A stretch of 64,000 bases of DNA from Marinirhabdus gelatinilytica (lineage in GTDB: Bacteria > Bacteroidota > Bacteroidia > Flavobacteriales > Flavobacteriaceae): positions 234,496-298,495 of the forward strand of contig NZ_QRAO01000002.1 in assembly GCF_003353425.1 (NCBI RefSeq), written 5' to 3'. Position numbers and translations under genes: made by a program. Under the pieces are notes generated by a model. The model ran no database searches. It was not told where the DNA came from and was given only the letters and a program-made list of their open reading frames with translations. Shown here piece by piece: positions 2-7,103 of this stretch (the first letter of the stretch is position 1; the number at the start of each line of letters is the position of its first letter).

Positions 2-499
2 ATCATTGGTTAATGTTTTTGCCTTTGCGCTCGCCCTCAATCCCTGAAGGGATGTCCACGCTCAATTGGGCATTAATAATACTTTTAATGGTTTCATAAT
101 CATTTAAAACTTGCTCATTCAAAAACCTTAATTCTAAAATTCCCAAGGTTTTTAGATAGTCCGTTCTCTCTAAATCCTTTTCTTTTTGTTCCTTTTGTAA
201 ATGATAGCCTCCGTCTATTTCTATAGACAGTCTTAATCTATGGCAATAAAAATCCAAAACATATCCAGCAATGGGATGTTGCCTTCTAAATTTAAAGCCC
301 ATTGGTTTGATTTTTAGATATTCCCAAAGTTTCTTTTCAGTTTCGGTCATACTATCCCTTAGCCTTGCGGCATTTCTAAAAACTTTTGGTGTAGCCCCAT
401 CGTGCATTCCTGATATTTTAAGAGGGTCTTTTTTCATCTAAGAGGGTCTTTAGAAAACCCACCCTTTAGGGATGGGGCAAGGTTTTCGGCAATCAATAT
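2..499. repeat. Cassette repeat, copy 1 (partner 1394-1891)
   Basis: By eye this 498-bp stretch is identical to 1394-1891 at a constant offset of 1392. It covers the whole DUF559 gene plus the cassette tail and the last codons (ILIA) of the truncated DUF6090 fragment. Base 1 and base 500 differ from their partners. Short palindromes lie near both ends: ATCCCTGAAGGGAT at 40-53 and CCCTTTAGGG at 462-471. A 12-bp direct repeat AAGAGGGTCTTT occurs at 420-431 and 440-451, flanking the DUF559 start codon. Confidence 0.85.
3..437 (-). CDS. DUF559 endonuclease-domain protein, cassette copy 1
   Basis: A 144-residue protein of the DUF559 family, a compact nuclease-like fold related to Vsr and other PD-(D/E)XK enzymes. 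The family signature is visible at about residues 30-115: TETEKKLWEYLK, then FKFRRQHPIAGYVLDFYC, then LSIEIDGGYH, which carries the acidic residues expected of the active site. The protein sequence is identical to the gene at 1395-1829. Its ATG overlaps the stop of the 56-codon fragment upstream, and its TGA overlaps the ATG of a further DUF6090 gene that leaves the window at base 1 (ATGATT reads on the minus strand from base 6). The first codons (MKKDPLK) echo the last codons of the fragment (SKDPLR) because a 12-bp direct repeat spans the junction. Substrate and biological role are unknown; a mobility or repair function is inference only. Confidence 0.85.
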   Translation of the reverse strand: MKKDPLKISGMHDGATPKVFRNAARLRDSMTETEKKLWEYLKIKPMGFKFRRQHPIAGYVLDFYCHRLRLSIEIDGGYHLQKEQKEKDLERTDYLKTLGILELRFLNEQVLNDYETIKSIINAQLSVDIPSGIEGERKGKNINQ

Positions 500-604
500 T
501 CCAATCACCACAAGGATGATTTCGCCTATGGCGTAGAGCAGGTATTTCGAGAAACGATTTTCTCGTATCAAACGTTGGCGGATATGTCGGAAGAATTTAA
601 TCAT
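434..604 (-). CDS. Truncated DUF6090 N-terminal fragment fused to cassette tail (copy 1)
   Basis: A 56-codon reading frame. The first 39 residues are the standard DUF6090 N-terminus (MIKFFRHIRQRL, then a membrane segment ending VVIGILIA). After GILIA the normal LQINNWNE is replaced by the cassette-encoded tail ENLAPSLKGGFSKDPLR and a stop. It starts inside the stop of the DUF6090 gene at 601-1398 (ATGA) and ends inside the start of the DUF559 gene. It could be a leader that couples translation, a small membrane peptide, or plain debris from recombination. Two such fragments of the same length exist in the window, which argues against random decay. Confidence 0.6.
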   Translation of the reverse strand: MIKFFRHIRQRLIRENRFSKYLLYAIGEIILVVIGILIAENLAPSLKGGFSKDPLR

Positions 605-1398
605 TGTCGTTTGTTTATTTCACTTGTAATAAGTTGTGTGAGTTCTTCAACCTCTTCTTCTAATTTTTTGAAATAGGGCAATTGTCTATGATAATTGTCA
701 GCAAATACATCAAAATTATTTATAAACTCCTTGTTGTTGATAATTCCTAGCATGGATTGCCCCATAGACTGCATGGCATTTTGAATTTCTTCTTCAGTGA
801 ATTGAATATCCACGTATTCTGCGAAATTTGGGTCAATGGGTTTAAAATCCTTTATATTGTAATGGGATTGTGTTGTCTCCATTAACCTATTATGTGTTGA
901 AGCGCTCGTATTATCCCAATTTTTAATGCTGGAATAATTATTATTAAGAGCAATTAATTTGCTCTTAATGGTATCATTTTTAATTACATTGAGGTTGCCA
1001 CTGCTCAACAACTCTGTAAATGTATCTTGATTTGGGTTGATGCTATTCCATGTCATGGCAGTTTTCATATCTCCTGCAAGCTTCATGAAATTTATAGTGT
1101 CTTTACGCTTGTTAAAGTTAATTGCAATGGTATTTTGAATGTATTGCACCTGCTTTTTACGAGTATCATGAGTGTTCTGCCATAACAGTTTATCTTTTTC
1201 TAAATCGTTTACCAGACGTTTTAAATAGCCAATCTCAATAGCATCTTGCTTGCGTTCTTCATTCCAATTATTAATCTGTAATGCAATTAAAATACCAATC
1301 ACCACAAGGATGATTTCACCTATGGCGTAGAGCAGGTATTTTGAAAATCGATTTTCGATTACTAATCTTTGACGTATATGGCGGAAGAATTTTATCAT
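601..1398 (-). CDS. DUF6090 family protein
   Basis: A 265-residue protein of unknown function. The N-terminal ~52 residues are the conserved DUF6090 module: a basic amphipathic stretch (MIKFFRHIRQRL), one membrane segment around residues 24-39 and the signature ALQINNWNE. The remaining ~210 residues are mostly helical and hydrophilic, and share little with the paralogue at 1993-2802. The single N-terminal anchor predicts a membrane-tethered soluble domain; its orientation cannot be read from sequence. The ATG overlaps the stop of the upstream DUF559 gene (ATGA), and the stop overlaps the start of the next fragment, so the gene is embedded in a translationally coupled chain. Its first 86 bases are identical to those of the fragment at 1826-1996. 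Confidence 0.85.
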   Translation of the reverse strand: MIKFFRHIRQRLVIENRFSKYLLYAIGEIILVVIGILIALQINNWNEERKQDAIEIGYLKRLVNDLEKDKLLWQNTHDTRKKQVQYIQNTIAINFNKRKDTINFMKLAGDMKTAMTWNSINPNQDTFTELLSSGNLNVIKNDTIKSKLIALNNNYSSIKNWDNTSASTHNRLMETTQSHYNIKDFKPIDPNFAEYVDIQFTEEEIQNAMQSMGQSMLGIINNKEFINNFDVFADNYHRQLPYFKKLEEEVEELTQLITSEINKRQ

Positions 1399-1403
1399 TG
1401 GTT
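1313..1403. repeat. 91-bp direct repeat flanking cassette copy 2 (partner 1911-2001)
   Basis: The downstream member of the pair, lying at the start of the DUF6090 gene at 601-1398. After GGTGAAAT the two copies diverge (CATCCTTGTGG here, TGTTCTTGTGG in the fragment), although the encoded peptide stays almost the same. Confidence 0.75.
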
Positions 1404-1891
1404 AATGTTTTTGCCTTTGCGCTCGCCCTCAATCCCTGAAGGGATGTCCACGCTCAATTGGGCATTAATAATACTTTTAATGGTTTCATAATCATTTAAA
1501 ACTTGCTCATTCAAAAACCTTAATTCTAAAATTCCCAAGGTTTTTAGATAGTCCGTTCTCTCTAAATCCTTTTCTTTTTGTTCCTTTTGTAAATGATAGC
1601 CTCCGTCTATTTCTATAGACAGTCTTAATCTATGGCAATAAAAATCCAAAACATATCCAGCAATGGGATGTTGCCTTCTAAATTTAAAGCCCATTGGTTT
1701 GATTTTTAGATATTCCCAAAGTTTCTTTTCAGTTTCGGTCATACTATCCCTTAGCCTTGCGGCATTTCTAAAAACTTTTGGTGTAGCCCCATCGTGCATT
1801 CCTGATATTTTAAGAGGGTCTTTTTTCATCTAAGAGGGTCTTTAGAAAACCCACCCTTTAGGGATGGGGCAAGGTTTTCGGCAATCAATAT
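1394..1891. repeat. Cassette repeat, copy 2 (partner 2-499)
   Basis: Second copy of the 498-bp identical block. On both sides identity gives way at once to DUF6090 coding sequence that differs between the two loci. The start-to-start distance across a cassette (fragment ATG to next DUF6090 ATG) is 598 bp in both places: 1996 to 1398 and 604 to 6. Confidence 0.85.
1395..1829 (-). CDS. DUF559 endonuclease-domain protein, cassette copy 2
   Basis: Identical in protein sequence to the copy at 3-437 (144 residues), with the same DUF559 motifs DFYC and IEIDGGYH. Identity extends to the surrounding DNA from 1394 to 1891, by visual alignment with 2-499, and then stops abruptly inside the fused DUF6090 fragment. 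The gene begins within the stop of the 56-codon fragment and its own TGA overlaps the ATG of the DUF6090 gene at 601-1398. Conservation of an intact reading frame in both copies suggests the protein is either functional or very recently duplicated. The catalytic target is not known. Confidence 0.85.
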   Translation of the reverse strand: MKKDPLKISGMHDGATPKVFRNAARLRDSMTETEKKLWEYLKIKPMGFKFRRQHPIAGYVLDFYCHRLRLSIEIDGGYHLQKEQKEKDLERTDYLKTLGILELRFLNEQVLNDYETIKSIINAQLSVDIPSGIEGERKGKNINQ

Positions 1892-1996
1892 CCCAATAAC
1901 CACAAGAACAATTTCACCTATGGCGTAGAGCAGGTATTTTGAAAATCGATTTTCGATTACTAATCTTTGACGTATATGGCGGAAGAATTTTATCAT
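1826..1996 (-). CDS. Truncated DUF6090 N-terminal fragment fused to cassette tail (copy 2)
   Basis: A 56-codon frame of the same design and length as the one at 434-604: DUF6090 N-terminus up to GILIA, then the tail ENLAPSLKGGFSKDPLR. In the DUF6090 part it differs from copy 1 at several positions (for example RLVIEN against RLIREN) but matches the downstream DUF6090 gene at 601-1398 for its first 86 bases. The fragment therefore resembles its own downstream neighbour more than it resembles the other fragment. Start overlaps the stop of the DUF6090 gene at 1993-2802; stop overlaps the DUF559 start. Confidence 0.6.
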   Translation of the reverse strand: MIKFFRHIRQRLVIENRFSKYLLYAIGEIVLVVIGILIAENLAPSLKGGFSKDPLR

Positions 1997-2001
1997 TGGT
2001 T
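1911..2001. repeat. 91-bp direct repeat flanking cassette copy 2 (partner 1313-1403)
   Basis: Minus-strand sequence starting AACCAATGATAAAATTC is the same here and at 1313-1403 for about 91 bases, covering the 5' end of the DUF6090 reading frame. One copy precedes the cassette (in the fragment) and one follows it (in the full gene). Recombination between the two would remove exactly 598 bp and leave two DUF6090 genes joined by an ATGA overlap. Confidence 0.75.
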
Positions 2002-2802
2002 TTCAGCTATTTCCGAAGTAATTAAATCTATTATTTCTTGGGTTTTATTCCTAACACCAATGGACTGTTCATTAGTGTAAGGTGTCATACCAAGTAATCG
2101 AGTGATATGATCTTCAAAATCAGGATGGTTTAAAAGATTTTCGAAATTAGCCTTTGGTACCAGATTTTTTAATTCTGAAAAATCACTAAGACTTTTACCA
2201 ATGGTGAATCTGGCCCTTAATTCTTCATCAAATAAAAAATTAGTAATGAAGCCTCCTATTTGATACTGATCAATTAAAAAAGCGTAAAATTCTTCTTCGG
2301 TAAACCTAAAAATGTTCAATTCTTCTTCATTGAGCTCCTTTAAAAAACTCGAATATGAAGATATTCTGTTCCGTAAAGTAGCGTTTTCTATTAAATATAA
2401 TTTACCTGCATTTATCAACTCATTGCTTACACCTAACTGTGGGTCAAAGGTTGGTCTCATTGTTGCACGTGAAAGATGATAATCTATACTATCTGTTGTA
2501 ATATTTTTAGGGCGTTTATGGATGTAATTTAAAAGGGTAATGCACGATTTAATAACATCATTTCTAAGGCTGATTTTACTTTCTATTTGCTGCAAGTTAC
2601 TTTCATATTCTGCCAATAACTGCGTTAGTATAAGTTGTTCTTGTTGGTCGTTTTTTTTATTCTCATTCCAATTGTTAATCTGTAAAGCAATAAGGATCCC
2701 AATTACTACAAGGATGATTTCACCTATAGCGTAGAGTAGGTATTTACTGAATTTGTTTTCAGAAAGTAAACGTTGTCTTATCCTTCGGAAGAATTTTATC
2801 AT
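1993..2802 (-). CDS. DUF6090 family protein
   Basis: A 269-residue protein of unknown function with the usual DUF6090 N-terminus (MIKFFRRIRQRLLSENKFSK, membrane segment to about residue 39, then LQINNWNE). An in-frame start seven codons upstream (2823) exists, but the start at 2802 matches the N-terminus of the paralogues. The C-terminal ~215 residues differ from the neighbour at 601-1398 apart from scattered positions; they are rich in acidic and aromatic residues and look alpha-helical. Four bases separate this start from the stop of the 51-codon remnant upstream, so translation may be coupled. It is the first full-length member of the array in transcription order. Confidence 0.85.
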   Translation of the reverse strand: MIKFFRRIRQRLLSENKFSKYLLYAIGEIILVVIGILIALQINNWNENKKNDQQEQLILTQLLAEYESNLQQIESKISLRNDVIKSCITLLNYIHKRPKNITTDSIDYHLSRATMRPTFDPQLGVSNELINAGKLYLIENATLRNRISSYSSFLKELNEEELNIFRFTEEEFYAFLIDQYQIGGFITNFLFDEELRARFTIGKSLSDFSELKNLVPKANFENLLNHPDFEDHITRLLGMTPYTNEQSIGVRNKTQEIIDLITSEIAENQ

Positions 2803-2806
2803 ACTA

Positions 2807-2962
2807 TCAGCACATTTTTGCAAGCTGTTCGTAAACAGGCTTCATCTTGTTCAAAATTAGTTTTGAAGTATTTGGCAACACCTGCGATAGGCTGTCTATA
2901 GTGTATTGTTGGGCTACAAGTATGTAGTATGGGAGCAAGGCCATAATGGTCCCAGTTTTCAT
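2807..2962 (-). pseudogene. 51-codon N-terminal remnant ahead of the DUF6090 array
   Basis: A short frame starting MKTGTIMALLPYYILVAQ, which looks like a signal peptide, followed by QYTIDSLSQVLPNTSK and a stop. The DSLxQVLP pattern is typical of the mature start of Bacteroidota TPR-type sensor proteins, and nothing of the rest of such a protein follows, so I read it as the 5' stub of a deleted gene. It ends four bases before the first DUF6090 start and may now act only as a leader supplying promoter and translation to the array. The family assignment is inference from a short segment. Confidence 0.4.
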
Positions 2963-3165
2963 GGTGAGGCTGGTTTTTGTTGCTTTGTAATATTTTGTTT
3001 TTCAGTGATATAAATGTAGGCTATTATTTTTTAACGAGAAATACGTGTTTATACTTATAGCTTTTCAACGGAATTCAAAATTGAAATCCAGGCCGAAATG
3101 GAACGTTGGTTTCAAAACCTAAAAGCCTGCAATGCCAACTGTTACTGTAAACCGTATTCAAATTA

Positions 3166-3205
3166 TGACACCCTGTCAGTCTCTTTCCCTTGGCACATTC
3201 CTTGA
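3166..3205 (+). promoter_or_regulatory. Palindrome plus sigma-54-like promoter upstream of dnaK
   Basis: TGACA-CCC-TGTCA (3166-3178) is a perfect palindrome. Thirteen bases on, TGGCACATTCCTTGA (3191-3205) fits the -24/-12 pattern TGGCAC-N5-TTGC recognised by sigma-54, except that the final C is A. The site is 53-67 bp before the dnaK start. A stress-responsive promoter is the natural reading, but whether sigma-54 really uses it is inference. Confidence 0.4.
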
Positions 3206-3257
3206 CTATTAGTAAGCGTATTACAAAAAAGAATTTAAAATTTATAACACTAATAAT

Positions 3258-5180
3258 ATGAGTAAAATAATTGGAATCGACTTAGGGACAACCAACTCTT
3301 GCGTTTCGGTAATGGAAGGTAGCGAGCCAACGGTAATCCCTAACGCCGAAGGAAAAAGAACAACGCCCTCCGTAATTGCATTTGTAGAAGGAGGAGAAAT
3401 TAAAGTAGGAGATCCTGCAAAGCGCCAGGCCGTGACCAACCCAACAAAAACGGTTGCGAGTATCAAGCGTTTTATGGGGAACAAATTCTCTGAAAGTAAA
3501 AAAGAAGCAGATCGCGCTGCCTATAAAGTGGTAAAAGGTGAAAACGATACCGCCCGTGTAGATATTGACGGCCGTATGTACACCCCACAGGAATTGAGTG
3601 CGATGATCCTTCAGAAAATGAAGAAAACAGCCGAGGATTACCTGGGTCAAGATGTATCCCGTGCCGTAATTACGGTACCTGCGTACTTTAACGATAGCCA
3701 GAGACAAGCAACCAAGGAAGCTGGTGAGATCGCTGGGTTAAAGGTAGAACGTATAATCAACGAGCCTACCGCAGCAGCATTGGCTTATGGTCTTGACAAG
3801 AAAAGTACAGACCAAAAAATAGTGGTATTCGACTTTGGTGGTGGTACGCACGATGTATCGATCCTTGAATTGGGAGACGGTGTATTTGAAGTATTGGCTA
3901 CCGATGGTGACACACACTTGGGTGGTGACGATGTAGATGAAAAGATCATCGACTGGTTGGCAGACGAGTTCCAGAAGGAAGAGGACATGGATCTTCGTAA
4001 GGACCCTATGGCACTACAGCGTTTGAAGGAAGCAGCCGAAAAAGCAAAAATCGAGCTTTCATCTTCTGCACAAACTGAAATCAACTTACCTTACGTTACG
4101 GCTACCGCTAGCGGACCGAAGCACTTGGTAAAAACATTGACACGCTCAAAATTTGAGCAATTGATAGACGACTTGGTAAAAAGAACCATCGCACCTTGCG
4201 AAAAAGCACTGAAAGCTGCTGGATTGAGCAAGAGCGATATAGATGAGATCATCCTTGTGGGTGGTTCCACACGTATTCCTGCCGTACAGGAAGCCGTAGA
4301 GAAGTTCTTTGGTAAAGCACCAAGTAAAGGTGTGAACCCGGACGAGGTAGTGGCTATTGGAGCAGCTATCCAAGGAGGAGTCCTCACTGGAGATGTTAAG
4401 GATGTATTGTTGCTGGACGTAACACCACTTTCTTTAGGTATTGAAACTATGGGTGGCGTAATGACCAAACTTATTGAGGCCAACACTACCATCCCTACCA
4501 AGAAAAGCCAGGTATTCTCCACAGCGGCCGATAATCAGCCAAGTGTAGAGATTCACGTACTGCAAGGAGAACGCCCAATGGCGAACGATAACAAAACAAT
4601 AGGTCGTTTCCACTTGGACGGGATCCCACCAGCACAACGTGGTGTACCACAGATAGAGGTAACGTTCGATATTGATGCCAACGGTATCATTAAAGTAAGT
4701 GCCGAGGATAAGGCAACCGGTAAGAAGCAGGATATCCGTATCGAGGCATCTTCTGGATTGACCGAAGAGGAAATCCAAAAAATGAAGCAAGAAGCCGAAG
4801 CAAATGCTGAAACTGATAAGAAGGCAAAGGAAACAGCCGATAAGATCAACGAGGCAGACGGGATGATTTTCCAGACCGAGAAATTGCTGAAGGAATCTGG
4901 CGATAAGTTATCTGAAGATAACAAGACCAAGATCGAAGGCGCTCTTGAAGAATTGAAGAAAGCTTACGAAACCAGAGAGATCGAGAAGATCCAACCCGCG
5001 TTGGATAACATCAACGAAATCTGGAAGACTGCGAGCGAAGAGATCTATAAGGCACAAGCCGAAGCTCAAGGACAACAGGGAGCTCCAACAGGAGAGCCCA
5101 CTGCCGATGCAGACAACGCAACAGAAGGCAATAATGAAGGAGCCGATGTTGAGGACGTAGACTTCGAAGAAGTCAAGTAG
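3258..5180 (+). CDS. dnaK: Chaperone DnaK (Hsp70)
   Basis: A 640-residue Hsp70 of normal bacterial length. The ATP-binding domain opens with [18 protein letters not shown]; the phosphate-2 region reads [18 protein letters not shown], where His replaces the usual Phe, a variant I associate with flavobacterial DnaK; the adenosine motif is [13 protein letters not shown]. The substrate-binding beta domain covers roughly residues 385-505 and the helical lid follows. The C-terminal tail is Gln/Gly/Ala-rich and ends in acidic [11 protein letters not shown], as expected for DnaK. It folds nascent and stressed proteins in the cytoplasm with DnaJ and GrpE; neither partner is in the window, so the gene stands alone here. 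The ATG follows an AT-rich leader, and a strong hairpin terminator lies about 100 bp after the stop. Confidence 0.98.
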
Positions 5181-6395: not shown

Positions 6396-7103
6396 TTAAT
6401 TGTCGTCTTCGCTGGTTTCTATGGCGATTACTGTTTTTGCAGAGGGTACGATACTGCTTTTCTGTAAATCTAGAGTTCCAGAATTAGACATCAATACCAT
6501 TGAGAAAATTTCAGTATTGGTAAACTTGTTTTCAGCAATCATCAATTCTTTTAAGTTACTGTTGTTGGCAAGTTGTACGGGTAATGCACCCACAAGTTGA
6601 TTGTCGAACACATTAAATACTTCCAGTGCTGTTAAGTTGTTTATTTCGGAAGGTACATTTCCGGAAAGTTGGTTGCTGCTCAAGTGCAACTGCTTTAGGT
6701 TGGTTAGGTTTCCTACACTGCTTGGGATCTCTCCCACTAGTGCGTTACCGTTTAAGGCCAAGGTTTGTAGGTTTTTAAGGTTTCCAATAGTTGTAGGTAA
6801 ATTTCCCTCAATTTTGTTGAAAGAAAGCTCTAGCGTCCTTAAATGGGTTAAATTTCCTATAGAAGCCGGAAGCTCTCCATTAAGGTTGTTGAAAAGAAGA
6901 CTGATTCCTGTAACCCTGTCATTTTCTACCGTAATCCCTTGCCAATTGGTTACTGGTGTATTAAGGTCCCAAGATTGTATCCATTGATCGCCCTGCGTTG
7001 CTACATACAAATCCAGCAAGGCCTCTTTTTCTGCTTCGCTTACATTGGCAGTGGCTATAACAGTAAAAAAAAGGAAAAATGAGGTTATTAAAGTTGATTT
7101 CAT
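6396..7103 (-). CDS. Secreted leucine-rich repeat protein
   Basis: A 235-residue exported protein: signal peptide MKSTLITSFFLFFTVIATA, then an LRR N-terminal cap (EKEALLDLYVATQGDQW, residues ~24-40) and about six plant-type repeats of 23-24 residues with the pattern LxxLxLsxNxLxGxIPxxIGNL (for example LRTLELSFNKIEGNLP). The C-terminal ~30 residues lack the repeat, and no C-terminal type IX sorting domain is visible, so it is probably periplasmic or anchored through partners. Such proteins mediate protein-protein contact; no specific role can be read. It follows the alpha/beta hydrolase on the same strand, with a strong terminator between them, so it is likely transcribed separately. Confidence 0.8.
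   Translation of the reverse strand: MKSTLITSFFLFFTVIATANVSEAEKEALLDLYVATQGDQWIQSWDLNTPVTNWQGITVENDRVTGISLLFNNLNGELPASIGNLTHLRTLELSFNKIEGNLPTTIGNLKNLQTLALNGNALVGEIPSSVGNLTNLKQLHLSSNQLSGNVPSEINNLTALEVFNVFDNQLVGALPVQLANNSNLKELMIAENKFTNTEIFSMVLMSNSGTLDLQKSSIVPSAKTVIAIETSEDDN

Follow-up and report, generated by a model that had tools for sequence, protein, structure and literature searches.

Short hairpins that occur alone or in rows, together with internally deleted derivatives of a unit that encodes its own enzyme, characterize the repetitive extragenic palindromic (REP) sequences with their REP-associated tyrosine transposases (RAYT) and the miniature inverted-repeat transposable elements (MITEs), the enzymes of which are HUH or DDE transposases. 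A cassette that resembles these systems in both respects, but in which the gene inside the unit encodes a DUF559 protein with a predicted PD-(D/E)XK-type fold, is located within an array of DUF6090 genes in the flavobacterium Marinirhabdus gelatinilytica (contig NZ_QRAO01000002.1, positions 234,496 to 298,495; this entire stretch of 64,000 nucleotides is hereafter the window). With the EDxHD/Vsr homing endonucleases, such as I-Bth0305I, the nuclease shares its fold, as predicted (Z 11.1), and it has invariant E, D, H and D residues that may correspond to those of the family; it differs in that the cassette has no intron or intein, only a short protein, and hairpin ends, and in that cutting is putative (for the family, see the available parts of PMC6083498 and PMC12350094). 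The nearest idea is that of the mobile endonuclease open reading frames (ORFs) of fungal mitochondria (Allomyces atp6; Glomus atp6, atp9, cox2 and nad3), in which, in the accessible portion of the report, the nuclease gene lies beside a duplicate of a part of the host gene, so that a working host gene can remain; those ORFs bring a foreign 3' end and make a hybrid, whereas here a local-looking 5' end, a tandem bacterial array and a different nuclease family are involved (PMC3630166). Putative transposases of the PD-(D/E)XK type near MITEs of Thiomargarita combine the same broad fold class with palindromic mobile units that the authors call poorly understood, but these are PFAM12784/TIGR01784 proteins, not DUF559, and the part of the text available mentions no duplication of a gene start (PMC4853749). 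Rickettsia palindromic elements are likewise palindromes located in frame inside genes, but are about 150 bp long according to the available excerpt (PMC10969869), whereas here a whole nuclease is embedded. Phage SegB is a homing nuclease that causes segmental amplification, which was shown by experiment in phage T6 (PMC13096335, in the part available), whereas here we only infer amplification. No description of hairpin-ended DUF559 elements or of this arrangement was found in the open-licence literature, the longer result lists of which were seen in part, so that this is not a proof, and a literature search for the name DUF6090 found no paper.

The reading that we favour, with modest confidence, is that the cassette is a small mobile element in which a DUF559 gene of the Vsr/EDxHD fold lies between two hairpin ends, which occupies a fixed site in DUF6090 arrays and which spreads via recombination between the 5' ends of the array genes. 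Within this reading, the mobility of the cassette is well supported, and it probably spreads when DUF6090 5' ends recombine with each other. The two 498-bp cassettes (window positions 2-499 and 1394-1891) are identical to each other on direct comparison, as the first-pass annotation, a reading of the bare sequence, had stated. On the minus strand, the order is gene A (2802-1993), a DUF6090 5' fragment (fragment 2, 1996-1880), DUF559 copy 2 (1829-1395), gene B (1398-601), fragment 1 (604-488) and DUF559 copy 1 (437-3). The nuclease ORF of copy 1, of 144 amino acids, was taken from the ORF list and assigned to DUF559 by a Pfam scan, and that of copy 2 is identical; gene B (ORF list and Pfam scan) and gene A (Pfam scan) are full DUF6090 genes, and the counterparts of gene A in genomes G002 and G004 are directly followed by a full DUF6090 gene. 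The truncated DUF6090 start of 39 codons that had been noted ahead of each cassette is present in both places (488-604 and 1880-1996), with the ORFs extending to 434 and 1826, respectively (ORFs 434-604 and 1826-1996), and so is the spacing of 598 bp between the fragment ATG and the next ATG (604 to 6; 1996 to 1398). Directly left of the window, a gap of 96 N (C2:234400-234495 in the window's own genome, G000) cuts off the gene next to copy 1; past this gap, 99 nt are identical to the cassette end and are followed by another full DUF6090 gene, so that there are at least three cassette copies. A DNA search of the whole genome yields only these three cassette places, and the other strong DUF559 gene of this genome (C1:449417) is 42% identical to the cassette nuclease. 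The 17-kb stretch that holds the window array (L038) contains 11 DUF6090 start motifs, in 9 full genes and 2 fragments.

The same insertion is found in other genera. In the named genome scan, which kept 80 of 88 relatives, the close ones come from Paucihalobacter ruber (73% identity; locus L214), Planktosalinus lacus (70%; L215), two Ulvibacter genomes (71%), Maribacter (70%) and Nonlabens (62%). In both Paucihalobacter and Planktosalinus, the truncation of DUF6090 falls at one and the same codon (IGILIA|ENLAP), the fragment stop overlaps the nuclease ATG (ATGA) as it does in the window, and a full DUF6090 gene follows the nuclease; the junction ...ATTGCC|GAAAACCTTGCCCC is common to the window, L214 and L215, with spacings of 598, 589 and 596, respectively. 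Across genera, the first 40 nt of the element are identical at 36-38 positions, compared with 29-34 for the last 40 nt of the fragments. At the other end, the distance from the right end (GAGCG or CAGCG) to the ATG is 20-21 nt in all seven matched junctions, namely two in L038 (among them the leader at 1399-1418, minus strand, between the right end of copy 2 and the ATG of gene B), one each in L214 and L215 and three in an Ulvibacter metagenome-assembled genome (L217), in one unit of which the ATG is that of the nuclease itself. This DUF6090 junction is filled in three genera and without a cassette in the array stretches read of G001-G004; the four other genomes of the window's genus hold DUF6090 arrays, with no such cassette in the stretches read. 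An origin of the window cassette as an in-frame DUF6090-DUF559 fusion later split by a short duplication was considered and dropped, the same ATGA overlap being present in Paucihalobacter and Planktosalinus; a remnant DUF6090 3' end was also rejected as the origin of the right flank, which resembles a DUF6090 leader.

Two further observations bear on mobility. The Ulvibacter locus L217 contains one intact DUF559 gene (4661-5056) and three units from which the interior of the nuclease gene is deleted (about 4225-4385, 4508-4667 and 6465-6622), each retaining both hairpins together with a short remnant of the nuclease end; the same deletion is present in the first two and a different one in the third, and these units look like MITEs of the element. 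Between L214 and L215, the silent difference is 0.38 for DUF559 (86 sites) and 0.77 for LeuRS (360 sites; the two genomes were taken as G602 and G275, with agreeing match coordinates), while the adjoining DUF6090 fragments are only 67% identical. Because the nuclease shows half of the silent difference of LeuRS next to fragments so dissimilar, this comparison of Paucihalobacter with Planktosalinus points to horizontal transfer of the element in which its flanks did not travel along. The mobility that had been proposed for the cassette is thus backed by the shared junction in two other genera, the apparent transfer without flanks between these two and the MITE-like derivatives.

The cassette nuclease (copy 1 was scanned) is a member of DUF559 (PF04480) with an E value of 1.3e-30 and a score of 105.9 bits against a cut-off of 20.6. 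A structural model built from an alignment of 24 relatives reached a mean predicted local distance difference test score (pLDDT) of 85, single-sequence folding being unusable (pLDDT 38), and its best matches are 3hrl (Z 14.7), I-Bth0305I (Z 11.1, 2.6 Å over 95) and Vsr (Z 9.9, 2.3 Å over 100), so that the predicted fold matches the EDxHD/Vsr type of the latter two. In the 24-row alignment, E34, D62, H79 and D88 are invariant, and these residues may correspond to the letters of the EDxHD family. Of the earlier suggestion, the homing-like nature of the nuclease agrees with this predicted likeness to I-Bth0305I, and a fixed DUF6090 site agrees with the common junction of the relatives. The ratio of nonsynonymous to synonymous substitution rates (dN/dS) is 0.10-0.26 in 14 of 15 pairs, the remaining one being saturated and dS being large in several, by which measure the nuclease is under purifying selection. 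In a phylogenetic tree that excluded the weakly matching L114, the clade of the window copy is not the one that holds most of the DUF559 copies located in frame within other genes. PADLOC gave two low-scoring matches, and phage records three distant ones with 28-42% identity. A DUF559 protein of Caulobacter is described, in the accessible part of the report, as a Vsr-like repair nuclease (PMC12907096), and in another bacterium, segments carrying both a transposase and DUF559 form hotspots of recombination (PMC12308824, available part).

The left hairpins lie at 453-487 and, as an identical repeat, at 1845-1879 (minus strand), with an outer stem GAAAACC/GGTTTTC around CCCCATCCCTAAAGGG; the candidate right ones, with a ATCCCTTCAGGGAT core, lie at 27-61 and, again as an identical repeat, at 1419-1453 (minus strand). 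The case for the left hairpin comes from covariation across 10 related hairpins (eight of the left type and two of the right type, one row being misaligned by one base at its end). The outer stem varies yet stays paired in 97% of the cells, which none of 500 shuffles reach, and compensatory cells in the hairpin stem number 13, compared with 3.3 in the shuffles (0 of 500), two coarser measures being weaker (19 and 47 of 500). A perfect 7-nt outer stem is present in 32 of 61 hairpins (in 13 of 14 related loci), when swaps of arms between hairpins give 4.9 on average and 11 at the highest of 200; in this set, hairpins arranged in rows are near copies and not independent. Rows of hairpins with the same core are found around DUF559 genes at L139 (about 2550-4350), L048 and L221, similar to REP clusters.

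The 5' ends of the array genes show signs of exchange. Fragment 2 and gene B share an identical run of 91 nt, from -5 to +86, and are alike at 109 of 117 nt; the next longest shared 5' run in the window array, with the repeated cassette itself set aside, is 59 nt. No short target-site duplication is seen at copy 2; what is repeated there is the DUF6090 5' end, and beyond -5 the leaders are not alike. The first-pass annotation had each fragment match the gene that follows it, which holds for copy 2 and is empty for copy 1, where only ATGATT is visible before the N gap; beyond the window, it holds for Paucihalobacter, where the next gene is the best match of the fragment (85 of 111, with the runner-up at 83, and a 23-nt run that codes for the unusual IALVMI), and fails for Planktosalinus, so that the next gene comes first for two of the three rankable fragments with a visible next gene. 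The Planktosalinus fragment is more similar to its own array (90%) than to the others (78% and 77%).

Under the scenario that we favour, the element would have settled right after codon 39 of a truncated DUF6090 gene, 20-21 nt before the next ATG. Recombination between DUF6090 starts, we infer, would then copy it into other genes of the array or remove it cleanly, and because DUF6090 5' ends of the same direction flank it on both sides, the element could be copied or lost without harm to the following gene. Because the fragment stop overlaps the nuclease ATG, translation of the nuclease is probably coupled to that of the borrowed gene start, and our guess is that the nuclease cuts empty 5' ends or hairpins and so might drive the copying. 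That repair of such a cut would make the duplication, as the first-pass annotation proposed, is likewise a conjecture.

Within the order, DUF559 is present in 119 of 395 genomes. Among the matches listed, 45 loci in which DUF559 lies within an extended reading frame were read, at least six further weak matches of this kind being set aside. By motif, the hosts among these loci include 15 LeuRS (with the insert just before TTRPDT), 8 MetH (at two different sites), 7 RecG, 2 IleRS and 2 UvrD-type helicases; a Pfam scan of nine of the 45 gave LeuRS, MetH twice, IleRS, RecG, a UvrD-type helicase, HsdR, HisD (C-terminal) and HemD (N-terminal), and in the inserts of these nine detected only DUF559 and the overlapping MTES_1575, with no intein splicing domains (E values up to 1e-5). 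RecG consists of 704-707 amino acids in four genomes of the window's genus (three of these four empty sites were read) and of 855 in the fifth, where the insert separates HK from PPHILVMTATP. A LeuRS match is found in 143 of 150 genomes of another genus; in 50 loci parsed at the LeuRS site, 20 of which were chosen for length, 15 have an insert of at least 100 amino acids, 16 a short loop and 19 something in between. Pairs of LeuRS that are 94-96% identical can carry DUF559 domains only 50% identical, with different ends (for L105 and L174, LeuRS is 96% and DUF559 50% identical, the LeuRS flanks extending up to about 290 residues). Such pairs, rather than a tree, speak for several separate arrivals of DUF559 at the LeuRS site; in approximately unbiased (AU) tests, a single clade was not rejected for the LeuRS-borne (p 0.11) or the MetH-borne (p 0.35) DUF559.

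Inverted repeats, most of them hairpins by eye, bracket 47 of 72 DUF559 genes from many phyla, which none of 200 shuffles reach, compared with none of 119 control positions shifted by 2.5 kb and 3 of 130 ORFs comparable in length (75 of 80 loci were used, L240, L249, L250, L258 and L265 being omitted by hand because a contig end was close, and the flank filter retained 72). For the flavobacterial loci, the figure is 45 of 92 at 0 of 200 shuffles, the row of the window being there due to the repeated DUF6090 start; all seven RecG copies, both IleRS copies and six of the eight MetH copies of this set fail the test, so that their ends are either worn or never were repeats. We entertain, tentatively and with less confidence than the account of the cassette itself, a broader proposal in which DUF559 genes across many phyla would be the enzymes of a class of hairpin-ended mobile elements that are driven by a nuclease of the Vsr/EDxHD type and give rise to solo hairpins and deleted units, with in-frame entry at conserved spots of essential genes without splicing, and with DUF6090 gene starts serving as homology arms for harmless homing. 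If so, a nuclease family of 'unknown function' would turn out to be the enzyme of a widespread mobile element, which could explain bacterial hairpin repeats without a known mover; the cassette would be a bacterial element that spares its host gene by sitting beside a copy of the start of that gene, and LeuRS and MetH with their inserts would be natural examples of long proteins that can accommodate a complete folded nuclease within a loop. Unrelated in-frame repeats, microsatellite-like and REP-like, are also found along with DUF559 inserts in the loop of LeuRS that precedes TTRPDT (L143-L192, one genus). Three LeuRS inserts (L163, L178 and L107) lack typical motif residues or hairpins but are still in frame; they may be parasites in decay, the reading frame of which is kept open by an essential host.

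Several results weigh against the cassette being a mobile element spread in this manner. In the window itself, single-strand folding of the element ends does not stand out from that of shuffled sequences (z -1.1 for the left and -0.3 for the right, the latter -0.29 before rounding and weak on its own), the repeat between the left and right ends is modest, being reached by 15 and 32 of 2000 shuffles under two scorings, and the three DUF6090-borne loci L214, L215 and L217 fail the inverted-repeat test that 47 genes passed. The transfer signal comes from one pair, with LeuRS as the sole yardstick gene; between the window and L214 or L215, the silent differences (0.71 and 0.72, against 0.81 and 0.80 for LeuRS) are near saturation and uninformative. 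Close relatives are few, with copies at 70% identity or more in 4 of 397 genomes of the family. No DUF6090 start was found at L216 and L220, and L217 has fragments but no full DUF6090 gene. The best match of the Planktosalinus fragment is the array gene two places upstream (105 of 117), with the next gene fifth of six, and the Paucihalobacter fragment resembles its own array (73%) only slightly more than the others (70% and 68%). Finally, cassette-free arrays of four relatives hold identical 5' runs of 44-66 nt between genes with unlike bodies (in L130, a 66-nt run with 114 of 117 nt alike), so that such exchange is general, with the cassettes taking part in it.

This generality is what a passive passenger would be expected to show, that is, a DUF559 element that at one time took the place of a DUF6090 gene body and was then multiplied and homogenised by unequal crossing-over and gene conversion, with no role of the nuclease in its spread; the exact junctions, too, would be expected from one founding event, transfer of array DNA and later local conversion of the fragments. 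The purifying selection on the nuclease, the movement of the element between two genera without its DUF6090 flanks and the presence of DUF559 inside many unrelated genes, many with inverted-repeat ends, all speak against this explanation, which we consider doubtful although worth keeping in view. It is unlikely, more clearly so, that the hairpins owe their movement to a different system, such as a REP-type transposase, and simply accumulate around DUF559 genes that are Vsr-like repair genes. The Caulobacter protein, as characterized in the portion of PMC12907096 available, would fit such a role, and hairpins can outnumber DUF559 (ten matches to one hairpin-end pattern versus two DUF559 matches in genome G177), but the preference of inverted repeats for DUF559 genes over neighbouring ORFs (47 of 72 versus 3 of 130) and the retention of both ends of the DUF559 unit in the deleted derivatives are at odds with it. 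That one cassette was drawn twice by the assembler, a possibility that the first-pass annotation had raised, is highly improbable: identical 498-bp repeats beside an N gap are where short-read assemblies fail, but dissimilar DUF6090 genes anchor copy 2 to its left and right (and copy 1 on a single side), the two fragments are not identical (97 of 117 nt shared), a third cassette end lies past the gap and the same arrangement recurs in other genomes.

Some minor features of the array and its genome can be added. In the DUF6090 arrays (window 601-2802; L038 6962-15298), the first 39 codons are conserved and the gene bodies vary strongly, with several stop-start overlaps. The core of the left hairpin has a 19/22 match in an intergenic region of the window's own genome (G000:C1:408363-408384, L205), possibly a solo hairpin (E 0.06). 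Short, palindrome-like in-frame inserts are found near codons 12-22 of DUF6090 genes in L123 (1612-2409), L131 (3570-4370 and 5123-5917), L214 (8943-9101) and L217 (4387-4518).

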